A DNA stretch of 33,618 nt from Gemmatimonadota bacterium (lineage in GTDB: Bacteria; Gemmatimonadota; Gemmatimonadetes; Gemmatimonadales; Gemmatimonadaceae): NCBI GenBank assembly GCA_027622655.1, contig JAQBYI010000034.1, positions 1 through 33,618 of the forward strand, written 5' to 3'. This document shows, in pieces, positions 7,222 to 29,015 of this stretch. Numbering within the stretch: the stretch's first letter is position 1; each line of letters begins with the position of its first letter. Under the pieces are notes generated by a model. That model saw only the letters and a program-made list of their open reading frames with translations. It searched no databases and was not told the DNA's origin. The translations under genes were made by a program, and so were the position numbers.

Positions 7222-7251
7222 GTTGCGCTCTTGTTTGAGATGACAAACGAA

Positions 7252-7279
7252 ACGGGCCCGTGGAGTTCCACGGGCCCGT
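7252..7279 (-). terminator. Rho-independent terminator of the tyrosine attenuator, upstream of aroF
   Basis: On the minus strand, ACGGGCCCGTGGA (7279-7267) and TCCACGGGCCCGT (7264-7252) form a perfect 13-base inverted repeat, shortened to about 12 pairs by the small loop. It is followed by TTCGTTTGT, a T-rich run. It lies 30 nt upstream of the aroF ATG and 27 nt after the leader-peptide stop. The left arm (7276-7269) can instead pair with 7340-7333 in the leader, which would prevent the terminator from forming. This is what the sequence shows; use as a regulated terminator is inferred. Confidence 0.8.
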
Positions 7280-7306
7280 GAGGTATTCGCAAGACTGAAT
7301 CGCTAG

Positions 7307-7387
7307 CTAACCACGCCGCGCCCCAGCCGTGCGGCCCGTGTGGCGGCCGACGGCGTAGTAGTAATAGGAGGCGTAGAGTGTGCTCAT
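7307..7387 (-). CDS. Tyrosine-rich leader peptide of the aroF operon
   Basis: A 26-codon ORF with ATG at 7387-7385 and TAG at 7309-7307. Its product begins MSTLYASYYYYAVG: codon 5 and codons 8-11 are Tyr, with no Phe or Trp. A transcription attenuator follows. A ribosome stalled at codons 8-11 would cover 7354-7345, one arm of a 10-bp pause hairpin with 7337-7326. That frees 7340-7333 (CACGGGCC) to pair with 7276-7269 of the terminator. The downstream genes make tyrosine, which fits a tyrosine-starvation sensor. No Shine-Dalgarno precedes the ATG, so translation may be leaderless or nearly so. The ORF and pairings are seen directly; regulation is inferred from the trp and his attenuator models. 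Confidence 0.78.
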   Translation of the reverse strand: MSTLYASYYYYAVGRHTGRTAGARRG

Positions 7388-7452: not shown

Positions 7453-9285
7453 CTATAGCTCGTCGTCCGGAATCGCGTCCATATCCACCGGAATCATCTG
7501 ATCTGCTTCTTCGGTGAAGATCTTCGAAGGTTCCGCCGGGCGTTCCTGCCCTTCCGGAATGTCGATCACCCCGAGGACAATCCGGCGGTGGATCGGATCC
7601 ACTTCGAGAACCCGAACGTTCATGGCCATTCCTTCCCAAGCCACGTCGACCGGGCTGTCCACGTTGACGCCCGACACGCCGAGGTGTGAGAGCGGAACGA
7701 ACCCTTCGATATCGTTGCCAATGTCGACGACGACGCCCTTGTCCATCAAGCGAACAACCTTGCCCGGCAGTTCCGTACCGACCGGATACGTCTCGCCGAT
7801 CTTCAGCCACGGATCGTCTTCAGCCTGCTTGAGACCGAGTGAGATTCGCTTGTTGTCGGCGTCAATGTTGAGGATGACCACGTTGACATCGTCACCCTTC
7901 TTCACCACATCCGACGGGTGCTGTACGCGCTTGGTCCAGCTCATGTCGGATATATGAATCAACCCGTCGATCCCGGGTTCGATCTCGACGAACGCGCCGA
8001 ACGACGTCAGGTTCCGCACCTTGCCGGAGAGACGCGTACCGACCGGATACTTCTGCGGAAGCACCATCCACGGATCCTGCTCGGTCTGCTTCATGCCGAG
8101 CGAAATCTTCTCTTCCGTCGGATCGACCTTGAGCACGACCGCTTCGATGGCCTCACCGATGGACACCAGCTTTGAAGGATGGCGCACATTGCGCGTCCAG
8201 CTCATCTCGCTGATGTGCACGAGGCCTTCGATGCCGGGCTCGAGCTCGATGAACGCCCCGTAGTTCGTAATCGAGACGACCTTCCCTGAGACTCGCGTGC
8301 CCACCGGGTACTTGGCGGCAACGTCCTTCCACGGATAGCTCTGCAACTGCTTGAGGCCGAGCGAGATACGCTCGCGCTCCCAGTCGATGTCGAGCACCTT
8401 GACCTCAAGCTCGGCGCCGATGGCCACCATTTCCGTCGGGTGCTGGATGCGGCCCCACGACATGTCGGTGATGTGCAGCAGGCCGTCGACTCCGCCGAGG
8501 TCGATGAACGCCCCGAAGTCGGTGATGTTCTTGACGACGCCCTTCCGCACCTGGTCCTTCTGCAGCTCCTTCATGAGCTTCTCGCGCTTTCCGGCGCGCT
8601 CGGTTTCCAGAATCACGCGGCGCGAAACGACGATGTTCCGCCGGCGCTTATTGAGCTTGATGATCTTGAACTCGTATTTCTGTCCGAGCAGATCGTCGAT
8701 GTTCGGCACACGACGAAGCGCGATCTGGGAGCCGGGCAGGAACGCATCGACACCCATGAGATCGACCACAACTCCGCCCTTGATCTTCTTGATGAGCACG
8801 CCTTCGACGGGCTGATCACTTTCGTATGCGACGCGGATCTTCTCCCACACTCGCATGAAGTCGGCTTTCTTCTTGGACAGCACGACCGAGCCTTCCTGAT
8901 CCTCGAGATGCTCGAGGAGGACTTCGACCTCGTCGCCGGGCTTGAGGTCCGGCATGTCCTTGAACTCTTCGAGCGGGATCGAGCCTTCCGACTTGAACCC
9001 GATGTCGAGGACGACGAGGTTGTCGCGCATCTCCAGCACCTTCGCCTTGACGATCTCACCCTCTTCGATCGCGGCGAGCGTGCCGTTGTACATATCCATC
9101 ATCGCCTCGTAGTCGGCCGACGAATATTCGTCTTCCTCGTAGAGCTCGGGGCGGCGATTGTTCAGGGGGCGAAGCTGCGCCTTTTGCAGGTCGCGCTTCT
9201 CGCGGGGGGTCAGTGCGCCAGGAAAGGCGTTTGCGTCCGGATTGTCGACGGCGTCTGACGGCGCGACGGGCGTTTCAGTGGTCAC
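7453..9285 (-). CDS. rpsA: 30S ribosomal protein S1
   Basis: A protein of about 610 residues that binds mRNA and helps recruit it to the 30S subunit. Six S1 (OB-fold) repeats can be recognised. The first two are the diverged ribosome-binding type. The third to fifth are near-identical in style, with DFGAFIDLGGVDGLLHITD, NYGAFIELEPGIEGLVHISE and SFGAFVEIEPGIDGLIHISD, and the sixth contains GVVVDIGNDIEGFVPLSH. An acidic tail ends the protein. The frame is open to a GTG at 9378, but a good promoter sits across that stretch, so I choose the GTG at 9285 (MTTETPVAPSDAV). Neither start has a Shine-Dalgarno, which is common for S1 genes, known in enterobacteria to be autoregulated. It lies downstream of cmk in the same direction, the widespread cmk-rpsA order. 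Confidence 0.93.
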   Translation of the reverse strand: MTTETPVAPSDAVDNPDANAFPGALTPREKRDLQKAQLRPLNNRRPELYEEDEYSSADYEAMMDMYNGTLAAIEEGEIVKAKVLEMRDNLVVLDIGFKSEGSIPLEEFKDMPDLKPGDEVEVLLEHLEDQEGSVVLSKKKADFMRVWEKIRVAYESDQPVEGVLIKKIKGGVVVDLMGVDAFLPGSQIALRRVPNIDDLLGQKYEFKIIKLNKRRRNIVVSRRVILETERAGKREKLMKELQKDQVRKGVVKNITDFGAFIDLGGVDGLLHITDMSWGRIQHPTEMVAIGAELEVKVLDIDWERERISLGLKQLQSYPWKDVAAKYPVGTRVSGKVVSITNYGAFIELEPGIEGLVHISEMSWTRNVRHPSKLVSIGEAIEAVVLKVDPTEEKISLGMKQTEQDPWMVLPQKYPVGTRLSGKVRNLTSFGAFVEIEPGIDGLIHISDMSWTKRVQHPSDVVKKGDDVNVVILNIDADNKRISLGLKQAEDDPWLKIGETYPVGTELPGKVVRLMDKGVVVDIGNDIEGFVPLSHLGVSGVNVDSPVDVAWEGMAMNVRVLEVDPIHRRIVLGVIDIPEGQERPAEPSKIFTEEADQMIPVDMDAIPDDEL

Positions 9286-17320: not shown

Positions 17321-17406
17321 TGCCGGGGCTGGGAATCGAACCCAGATGGGCTTTCGCCCAAGGGATTTTAAGTCCCTCGCGTCTAACCAAGTTTCGCCAC
17401 CCCGGC
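17321..17406 (-). tRNA. tRNA-Leu (UAA anticodon)
   Basis: An 86-nt class II tRNA on the minus strand. The acceptor stem GCCGGGG/CCCCGGC closes fully, the D arm contains GGTTAGACGC, and the anticodon stem AGGGA/TCCCT holds loop CTTAAAA with anticodon TAA. A long variable arm (TTGGGCGAAAGCCCA) and a T arm with GGTTCGATTCC follow. The discriminator is A; CCA is not encoded. It lies 54 nt after tRNA-Gly and 19 nt before the DapE-like start. Confidence 0.97.
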
Positions 17407-17460
17407 GATGGATGGCCCGACGATCTGTGAACTGACGAGGGCGATGTGCGTGTGTGGCGA

Positions 17461-17533
17461 AGCGGGAAACGGGACTCGAACCCGCGACCCCAACCTTGGC
17501 AAGGTTGTGCTCTACCAACTGAGCTATTCCCGC
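17461..17533 (-). tRNA. tRNA-Gly (GCC anticodon)
   Basis: A 73-nt tRNA on the minus strand. The acceptor stem GCGGGAA/TTCCCGC is perfect, the D arm contains AGCTCAGTTGGTAGAGC, and the anticodon stem CAACC/GGTTG holds loop TTGCCAA with anticodon GCC. The T arm is GCGGGTTCGAGTCCCGT. The discriminator is T, usual for glycine; CCA is not encoded. It is the first gene of the tRNA-dap-aroA-cmk series. Confidence 0.97.
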
Positions 17534-26905: not shown

Positions 26906-28134
26906 GCGCCCGCTCCGGGTTCGCCAGATCGCACACCGTCGGCTGCAGCGTGCACGCTGCCGTCCTGCAGCAGTAATTCGAACCGCTGGCCCGGCGCGAA
27001 CTGCTCCACGCGCGACAGCGCCACGCCCTCATGCGTACGCGGGAGAGCGTAGCCACGGGCAAGCGTCGCGAGCGGCGACAGTGCTTCGATCCGCCCGGCG
27101 ACGCCACGCAAGGCATCGCGCCGACGTTCAATTGAACGGGAGGCGCGCCCACGGAGATCGCGCGATACGCGGCTCAAATCGCGTCGCCCCTGGCTCGCCC
27201 GTCGCTGCAGCGACGCGGCCATAGTCGCAGCGAGCCCGCGAAGATCGCGCCGGATGTCGTCGAGGACAGGCGCCACCAGCTCGGCCGCCGCGCTCGGCGT
27301 TGCCGCGCGCGCGTCGGCTACGAAATCAGCCAACGTTACGTCAACCTCGTGCCCGACAGCGCTCACGATCGGAATCGGCGACGCAGCGATCGCGCGAGCG
27401 ACGCGCTCATCGTTGAAACACCAGAGATCTTCGCGCGAACCGCCGCCGCGCCCCACAATGAGCACATCCGCCCCGCCCCATCGTGCGGCGCGCTCAAGCG
27501 CCCGAACCAGTGACTCCGGCGCCGTGTCGCCCTGCACGGCCGCGGGAATCACCACGACGTCGATCGTCGGGTTCCGACGCGCAATTACCGACACGATGTC
27601 GTGCATGGCGGCACCGTCTGCGCTGGTAATCACACCGACGCACTTCGGAAATCGTGGAATCGCACGCTTACGCGCCGGGTCGAACAGACCGTCGCGCTCG
27701 AGAGCCGCCTTGACCTTCTCGAACGCCTTGCGCCACAACCCTTCGCCTTCGGCCTCGATCGCACGAACGGCGAACTGCACTTTGGCGCGTGCGGCCCACA
27801 TGGTGAGTTGTCCATACGCGACTACCTGCATCCCCTCGTCCGGCGGAGCGGGAATCCGCGCCTGATCGCGCGACCAGACTACGCAGTCGATCGCCGCGTC
27901 AGAGTCCTTGAGCGTAAAGTACCAGTGACCGTTTCGATGCTTCGTAAACGCACCGACTTCGCCGGCAATCCAGATCGGTGGAAACGTCCCCTCGAGAACG
28001 TCCTTCGCCTGCGCGGTCAGCGCTGCAACGGAGACCGCCCGTTCCGGCGAGTCGCCGGGAACGCCGTCGCCGGGATGCGGGCGAATGCGGCCGCGTGCGG
28101 ACGCCGGCGCTCGCGGCGCGCCTCGCGGTGCCAT
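26902..28134 (-). CDS. xseA: Exodeoxyribonuclease VII large subunit
   Basis: A 410-residue catalytic subunit of exonuclease VII. After an Ala/Arg/Pro-rich start of about 30 residues comes the OB-fold DNA-binding domain (VSVAALTAQAKDVLEGTFPPIWIAGEV, in pattern, then GHWYFTLKD). The nuclease core has VGVITSADGAAMHDI, DVLIVGRGGGSREDLWCFND and VSAVGHEVDVTLADFVADARAATPSAAAE, all family signatures. It is somewhat shorter than E. coli XseA (456), with a reduced coiled-coil part. The ATG overlaps the folD stop by one base (TGATG). Confidence 0.93.
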   Translation of the reverse strand: MAPRGAPRAPASARGRIRPHPGDGVPGDSPERAVSVAALTAQAKDVLEGTFPPIWIAGEVGAFTKHRNGHWYFTLKDSDAAIDCVVWSRDQARIPAPPDEGMQVVAYGQLTMWAARAKVQFAVRAIEAEGEGLWRKAFEKVKAALERDGLFDPARKRAIPRFPKCVGVITSADGAAMHDIVSVIARRNPTIDVVVIPAAVQGDTAPESLVRALERAARWGGADVLIVGRGGGSREDLWCFNDERVARAIAASPIPIVSAVGHEVDVTLADFVADARAATPSAAAELVAPVLDDIRRDLRGLAATMAASLQRRASQGRRDLSRVSRDLRGRASRSIERRRDALRGVAGRIEALSPLATLARGYALPRTHEGVALSRVEQFAPGQRFELLLQDGSVHAAADGVRSGEPGAGA

Positions 28135-29015
28135 CAGGCCGTCTGCTCCGCCGCGCGCACCGTGTTTCGCAGCAGCATCGCGATTGTCATCGGGCCCACG
28201 CCGCCGGGAACCGGTGTCAGCTTCGAGGCTACTGCACTGACGGTGGCGAAATCCACATCGCCAAGAAGTCGCATCCCCGACTTCGTCGTGGGATCCGCCA
28301 CGCGAGAGGTCCCGACGTCGATAACCACGGCGCCGGGCCGGATCATGTCACCGGTGATCGTGCCGGGTCGACCGACGGCGGCGATAACTATGTCCGCGCG
28401 CTTTGTGTGCCAGGCAAGGTCGGGCGTACGCGAGTGACAAACGGTCACCGTCGCGTCACCACCGGCGCCCTGTTGGATCAACAGGGCCATCATCGGCTTA
28501 CCTACGATGTTGCTGCGGCCGACAATCACGACGTGCTTGCCCGCCGTCTCGACGCCGTATTCCTGCAACAGCACATGGACTCCCGCCGGTGTGCACGGCG
28601 CAAAGCCATCCCGTTCACCGATGAGCACCTTGCCGACGTTTACCGGATGAAATCCGTCCACATCCTTGGACGAAGCGATTCGCCGAATGACGGCCTGCGG
28701 ATCGATCTGCTTCGGGACCGGCATCTGCACGAGGATTCCGTGCACCGCGGGGTCGGCATTCAACCGATCGACCACCGCGAGCAGTTCGTCCTGCGTCGTT
28801 GTCGCGGGCATGCGAATCGTCTCGCCCCGCATCCCGACCTCAATACTCGCCTTTTCCTTGTTGCGCACGTACGCGGCGCTTCCGCCGTCATCACCGACGA
28901 GCACAACGCTGAGTCCCGGGACGATTCCGCGGGCAGCGAGTGCGGCGCAGCGCACCGCGACTTCGCCTCGAATCTTCTTTGCGACGGCCGCGCCGTCGAT
29001 GAGTTCAGCGGGCAA
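28134..29015 (-). CDS. folD: Bifunctional methylenetetrahydrofolate dehydrogenase / cyclohydrolase
   Basis: A 293-residue NADP-dependent enzyme interconverting 5,10-methylene-, methenyl- and 10-formyl-tetrahydrofolate. Signatures are [13 protein letters not shown] (with the catalytic Tyr and Lys), [28 protein letters not shown] and [16 protein letters not shown]. No ATG fits the N-terminus: homology to MAAKIIDGKTIA of E. coli begins exactly at a TTG (29015), giving [15 protein letters not shown] use that TTG; it overlaps the rny end by 11 nt. A purine stretch AAGAGAG lies 9 nt upstream. The open frame continues to 29138 but only within rny. Confidence 0.92.

Follow-up and report, generated by a model that had tools for sequence, protein, structure and literature searches.

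In Escherichia coli, the trpL, pheL, hisL and thrL leaders share with the attenuator described here a four-strand logic and an intrinsic terminator, the control codons lying ahead of strand 1; they differ in being proteobacterial and in serving other amino acids, and the strand 2 described here lies inside the leader open reading frame (ORF). Translation of the E. coli leaders starts by means of a Shine-Dalgarno sequence, whereas the start found here looks near-leaderless. By its description, aroR of Corynebacterium glutamicum is also similar, as a leader peptide and an attenuator precede a DAHP synthase gene (aroF), and leader peptides without a ribosome binding site occur in that organism. 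However, aroR contains Phe-Tyr-Phe and transcription responds to Phe limitation, Tyr being without effect (Neshat et al. 2014 via PMC11802643; PMC4046766), whereas the leader described here comes from outside the Actinobacteria, has five Tyr and no Phe codons, and is followed by genes for chorismate mutase and TyrA after the DAHP synthase gene. In Acholeplasma, the uORFC-13-1 motif likewise consists of an upstream ORF and a terminator stem before aroF, for which amino acid sensing has been proposed, but it is a different motif with Phe codons and is confined to Acholeplasma and environmental sequences (PMC8632094). Putative attenuators ahead of tyrA operons, e.g. Vibrio aroA-tyrA, have been compiled from the Merino database (PMC1173090, Table 7); like the attenuator described here, they combine terminator and antiterminator structures ahead of tyrA-containing operons, but in the accessible part of that work they are structure predictions only, with the leader peptide and the sensed amino acid unspecified and Gemmatimonadota absent. 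A survey of Actinobacteria gave no RNA element for tyrosine operons (PMC1262725), and our literature search, with most subscription journals outside it, returned nothing relevant on attenuators in Gemmatimonadota or on leaders with Tyr codons.

Here, we describe a locus in the window, that is, the whole 33,618-nucleotide stretch of Gemmatimonadota DNA that was analysed. The interval 7387-7244 on the minus strand, upstream of the genes for DAHP synthase, chorismate mutase and TyrA (Table 1), is predicted, with a probability of about 90%, to be a transcription attenuator of the ribosome-mediated type, through which the aroF-chorismate mutase-tyrA operon responds to charged tRNA-Tyr. This reading draws on the ORF, the pairings, their covariation, the match between leader codons and downstream genes, and the geometry, all of which can be read in the sequences themselves. 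The proposed mechanism is classical ribosome-mediated attenuation, which is known; new, within the literature searched, are the phylum, the Tyr specificity, a family spanning multiple pathways and the Tyr control of phenylalanine hydroxylase. The wider family is a more interesting result than the attenuator in the window itself.

Table 1. Coordinates of the attenuator, its operon and the second attenuator of the same genome (window positions unless a contig is given).
Feature	Position	Strand	Details
-35-like TTGACA	7427-7422	minus	read from sequence; presumed promoter activity
-10 position GAGTCT	7404-7399	minus	17-nt spacer from TTGACA; weak match
Leader ORF MSTLYASYYYYAVGRHTGRTAGARRG, then stop	7387-7307	minus	26 codons, Tyr at codons 5 and 8-11
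Sensing codons 8-11	7366-7355	minus	TAT TAC TAC TAC, Tyr x4
Strand 1, 5' arm of 1:2 hairpin	7354-7345	minus	GCCGTCGGCC
Strand 2	7340-7326	minus	7340-7333 pairs with strand 3 (antiterminator); 7336-7326 pairs with strand 1
Strand 3, terminator left arm	7279-7268	minus	7276-7269 is the antiterminator partner
Strand 4, terminator right arm	7263-7252	minus	followed by U-rich tail to 7244
aroF, DAHP synthase type I-beta with ferredoxin-like domain	7221-6148	minus	Pfam PF00793, PF18152
Chorismate mutase (CM_2), type II	6151-5828	minus	Pfam PF01817; 4-nt overlap with aroF
tyrA, prephenate dehydrogenase	5831-5007	minus	Pfam PF02153, PF20463; 4-nt overlap with mutase
Second attenuator match, L150	G000:C114:22000-28700, contig 28133-28271	minus	Phe codons FTSAFFFG

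The initial annotation had described a 26-codon ORF with its Tyr codons, three pairings, and DAHP synthase, chorismate mutase and prephenate dehydrogenase genes downstream. Reading of the minus strand bears out the ORF and Pfam domains bear out the genes; the 1:2 and 2:3 pairings stand as they were given, whereas the terminator, described as a 13-bp stem, has 12 bp, because a 13th pair would leave a loop of 2 nt. In the 1:2 hairpin, strand 1 pairs with GGCCG(C)ACGGC over 10 bp with one bulge, and in the antiterminator CACGGGCC pairs with GGCCCGTG over 8 bp. The predicted intrinsic terminator, with arms ACGGGCCCGTGG and CCACGGGCCCGT and a 4-nt loop, lies between the leader ORF and aroF and is followed by the U-rich tail TTCGTTTG, in which the U-tract is interrupted by CG. 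No other YYYY run occurs in any of the window's six reading frames (33.6 kb), in which 1.2% of residues are Tyr.

This arrangement is conserved among relatives. Of 19 whose DAHP synthase is orthologous (60-89% identity), 18 carry both a leader ORF with aromatic codons and a GC-rich terminator upstream of that gene, L018 being the exception, and the search for relatives without the Tyr run or the terminator, which had been suggested as a check, thus brought no refutation. No such leader is found upstream of the DAHP synthase paralogues of about 50% identity (L021-L030) or of the third DAHP synthase gene of the window's genome (C15). A covariance model was built from 21 aroF leaders, and within the window's genus its strong matches go with the TyrA C-terminal domain: all nine sampled genomes with the domain have one (E 2.6e-15 or better), as against none of the six sampled genomes without it, where no match is stronger than 1.4e-4.

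At an E-value of 0.1, the model matches 214 of 395 Gemmatimonadota genomes and 94 of 138 genera; together with the first set, the top matches (to about E 7e-10) make up 112 distinct leaders. In the 21-leader alignment, the 3:4 helix is 96.7% paired, both partners vary in 7 of its 10 pairs, and none of 500 shuffles reaches the combined 1:2 and 3:4 structure on any measure. The 1:2 helix is poor in a column alignment (72% paired), yet every leader folds its own version. RNAalifold returned the terminator alone from this alignment because the register of strand 1 differs between leaders, and swap tests were used instead. Across the 112 leaders, own duplex energies (kcal/mol) are -19.0 vs -17.75 (sd 0.15) for permuted partners in 2:3, -14.0 vs -12.3 (sd 0.20) for swapped partners in 1:2, and -24.4 vs -18.1 (sd 0.21) for permuted partners in 3:4, with the proviso that partner permutations remove relatedness between leaders incompletely. 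For 2:3, the signal stays when the leaders are thinned by similarity to 46 (-18.5 vs -16.9, sd 0.30), and it is found in the 39 leaders that deviate from the majority in their terminator core (-17.8 vs -15.7 for permuted partners, sd 0.31; 0 of 200 permutations as low), examples being L227 (CGGGAGCT with AGCTCCCG), L246, L019 and L009. Judged from these alignments and energies, compensatory changes preserve 2:3 and 3:4, and the covariation, another check proposed in the initial annotation, backs the pairings in both the 21- and the 112-leader set.

The position of the leader start relative to the promoter-like signals bears on how translation of the predicted peptide would begin. An exact TTGAC occupies the -35-like position in 96 of the 112 leaders. 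Counted from its first T, the leader ATG follows after 35-39 nt in 97 of 106 leaders (mode 36; 40 nt in the window), which places the likely transcription start at or adjoining the ATG. Shine-Dalgarno-like pairing is seen at 4% of leader starts vs 46% of DAHP synthase starts, and the window leader is without it. The promoter spacing points to a start that is leaderless or nearly so, and in the window leader probably no more than about 5 nt separate the start codon from the transcription start. Actinobacteria are known to have leaderless leader peptides (PMC8079986).

The geometry of the leaders fits ribosome stalling at the sensing codons. In silico, a ribosome with an assumed leading edge of 12 nt was placed on the window leader, with the transcript extended as far as the terminator loop: strand 2 pairs with strand 3 when any of codons 8-13 is in the A site, the 1:2 hairpin forms at codon 5, and from codon 16 onward there is no 2:3 pairing. 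With all leaders taken together, positions that yield the antiterminator hold 512 of 586 sensing codons, vs 854 of 2303 other codons, bearing in mind that codons within one leader are non-independent and the counts partly reflect the shared layout. The median distance is 12 nt from the last sensing codon to strand 2, and the end of the stop codon and the start of the terminator lie a median of 24 nt and 49 nt past strand 2, which is itself within the leader ORF. From these features we infer termination, stalling, and the direction and size of the response. In the proposed model, transcription would start a few bases from the leader start codon and a ribosome would load onto the nearly leaderless transcript. 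When Tyr-tRNA is short, it would stall at codons 8-11 and cover strand 1, leaving strand 2 to pair with strand 3, so that the terminator would be blocked and the operon transcribed. When Tyr-tRNA is plentiful, the ribosome would reach the stop codon, located 24 nt past strand 2 in a typical leader, 1:2 would re-pair behind it, 3:4 would form and transcription would end near 7244.

What such leaders would sense can be read from the match between their codons and the first downstream gene, which was assigned by tblastn, with Pfam for representatives (aspartokinase-homoserine dehydrogenase and a mutase-TyrA fusion were named by reading the sequence, not by Pfam). The first gene encodes DAHP synthase in 65 leaders, phenylalanine hydroxylase (Biopterin_H) in 26, prephenate dehydratase in 8, HisG in 5, chorismate mutase in 4, aspartokinase-homoserine dehydrogenase in 3 and the mutase-TyrA fusion in 1. 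Tyr codons outnumber Phe codons in all 26 phenylalanine hydroxylase leaders and the reverse holds for all eight prephenate dehydratase leaders, whereas the HisG leaders are His-rich (5/5, e.g. HHHVHHH) and the aspartokinase-homoserine dehydrogenase leaders Thr-rich (3/3, e.g. TTTTTTT). DAHP synthase operons without TyrA in view are mixed, with 27 Tyr leaders, 9 Phe leaders and 6 ties. Conservation, covariation and this codon-gene match together support the Tyr-sensing reading put forward initially.

It could be argued that an attenuator of the same build senses aromatic amino acids in general and not Tyr alone, as several relatives (L007, L009, L014, L019 and L020) mix Phe or Trp with Tyr before the orthologous aroF, for example in FFTYFFSYGY, FYGFRYWF and YSWYWY, and as C. 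glutamicum aroR, despite its Phe-Tyr-Phe, responds to Phe only (PMC11802643). These mixtures mean that sensing may not be strictly Tyr in every relative, and the drift towards Phe and Trp occurs for the most part in operons with no TyrA in view. For the window we nevertheless regard general aromatic sensing as quite unlikely: its leader has 5 Tyr among 26 codons with zero Phe and zero Trp, Tyr exceeds Phe in 24 of 24 leaders of DAHP synthase operons in which TyrA is seen, and a separate, Phe-coded attenuator precedes a second DAHP synthase gene in the same genome (C114, L150). This second leader, MSRRALFTSAFFFGPHTGPERSFVRA, is followed by genes for DAHP synthase, a mutase-like segment, prephenate dehydratase, dihydroxy-acid dehydratase (ilvD) and an acetolactate synthase-like protein, so that the cell appears to have one Tyr-coded and one Phe-coded DAHP synthase operon. 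Among the relatives with mixed codons, the leader of L014 (G032:C1) has its aromatic run reduced to FSY next to a strong terminator and is possibly decaying.

We give very little weight to the idea that the hairpin terminates transcription of rpsA, with the Tyr-rich ORF being fortuitous. The gene for ribosomal protein S1 does end upstream on the same strand (at 7453, ~175 nt before the hairpin), and the weaker model matches of the window's genome (C59, C83 and C14), rejected as attenuators since they have no convincing leader, are plain intergenic terminators. However, more distant relatives keep the leader and the terminator in other upstream gene contexts, and an rpsA terminator would leave the residue-gene match and the 2:3 covariation unexplained. 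In addition, an ORF that starts with ATG and has four Tyr within five codons arose in none of 3000 dinucleotide-preserving shuffles of the intergenic region, 69 of which gave a 10-bp hairpin. A conserved Arg/Gly-rich small peptide that is functional in itself seems similarly far-fetched: TGRxxRRxR-like residues end many leaders, but the HisG, Thr, Phe and Tyr versions share this tail and not the N-terminal part, and the scaffold similarity between leaders of different genes is only about 51%. The Arg/Gly-rich stretch is encoded by strand 2 and its flank, and would therefore be constrained by RNA pairing. Finally, a Tyr T-box or other ligand-binding riboswitch with an incidental ORF is highly improbable. 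T-boxes do control tyrosine genes in other bacteria (PMC1262725), but an Rfam search of the window at gathering thresholds matched two tRNAs only and no leader family, what is conserved is a reading frame with codons suited to the pathway encoded downstream, and the room between promoter and terminator is taken up by the ORF and a short spacer. The two tRNA genes (RF00005) lie at 17321-17533 on the minus strand.

The Tyr-sensing attenuator of the window belongs with a larger set of Tyr, Phe, His and Thr operons, and is therefore less isolated than first thought. We consider it fairly likely that these leaders are one phylum-wide, near-leaderless attenuator family that acts as a main control of several amino acid pathways, with interchangeable Tyr, Phe, His or Thr codons on a shared scaffold (strand 2 near CACGGGCCG, stop codon ~24 nt later, terminator ~49 nt after strand 2). 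In such a family, the two DAHP synthase isozymes of a cell would be assigned to Tyr and Phe through the codons of their leaders, and phenylalanine hydroxylase would be Tyr-controlled and biosynthetic, replacing TyrA in many species. Whether the scaffold is shared through recent duplication was tested by comparing attenuators within genomes, and pairs from one genome resemble each other no more than other pairs do (0.524 vs 0.512, p 0.33), with G297 as the sole exception. Tyr-coded attenuators stand directly before phenylalanine hydroxylase genes in L159, L174, L180, L197, L199 and 21 further loci. These codons suggest that the enzyme makes tyrosine in those genomes, which fits the failure to detect a TyrA C-terminal domain in 16 of the 26 (Fisher p 0.002). 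For Dyella, Legionella and Echinicola, phenylalanine hydroxylase has been proposed to act in biosynthesis (PMC7311316), and no report of Tyr attenuation or a leader peptide for this enzyme was found in our search, outside which most subscription journals lay. Leader-peptide attenuation would extend to a phylum without prior report in the literature searched, with a clear Tyr-specific case, whereas the reported aroF leaders sense Phe. The family also lets gene function be read from leader codons, and its naturally occurring exchanges of sensing codons on a common scaffold are useful for studying attenuator evolution.

Several further loci were noted in passing. His-coded attenuators stand before hisG in L157, L162, L243, L245, L247, L264 and L270, and Thr-coded ones before a gene for an aspartokinase-homoserine dehydrogenase-like protein in L168, L218, L238 and L254. 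Outside the phylum, aromatic-rich short ORFs with terminator-like hairpins behind them lie upstream of DAHP synthase genes in L046, L110, L093 and L106, whose hosts are Calditrichota (HFFGFYFGYYYWTQ), Planctomycetaceae, Fusobacteria and a Provencibacterium record, and similar attenuators may occur in other phyla. The weak match L267 (G228:C220:3794-3960, minus strand; E 7.5e-6) has a Cys/Met-rich leader that begins MNPSACYCCRMMMALPPGRR, and the gene that follows looks, by eye, like one for an ATP-grasp protein.
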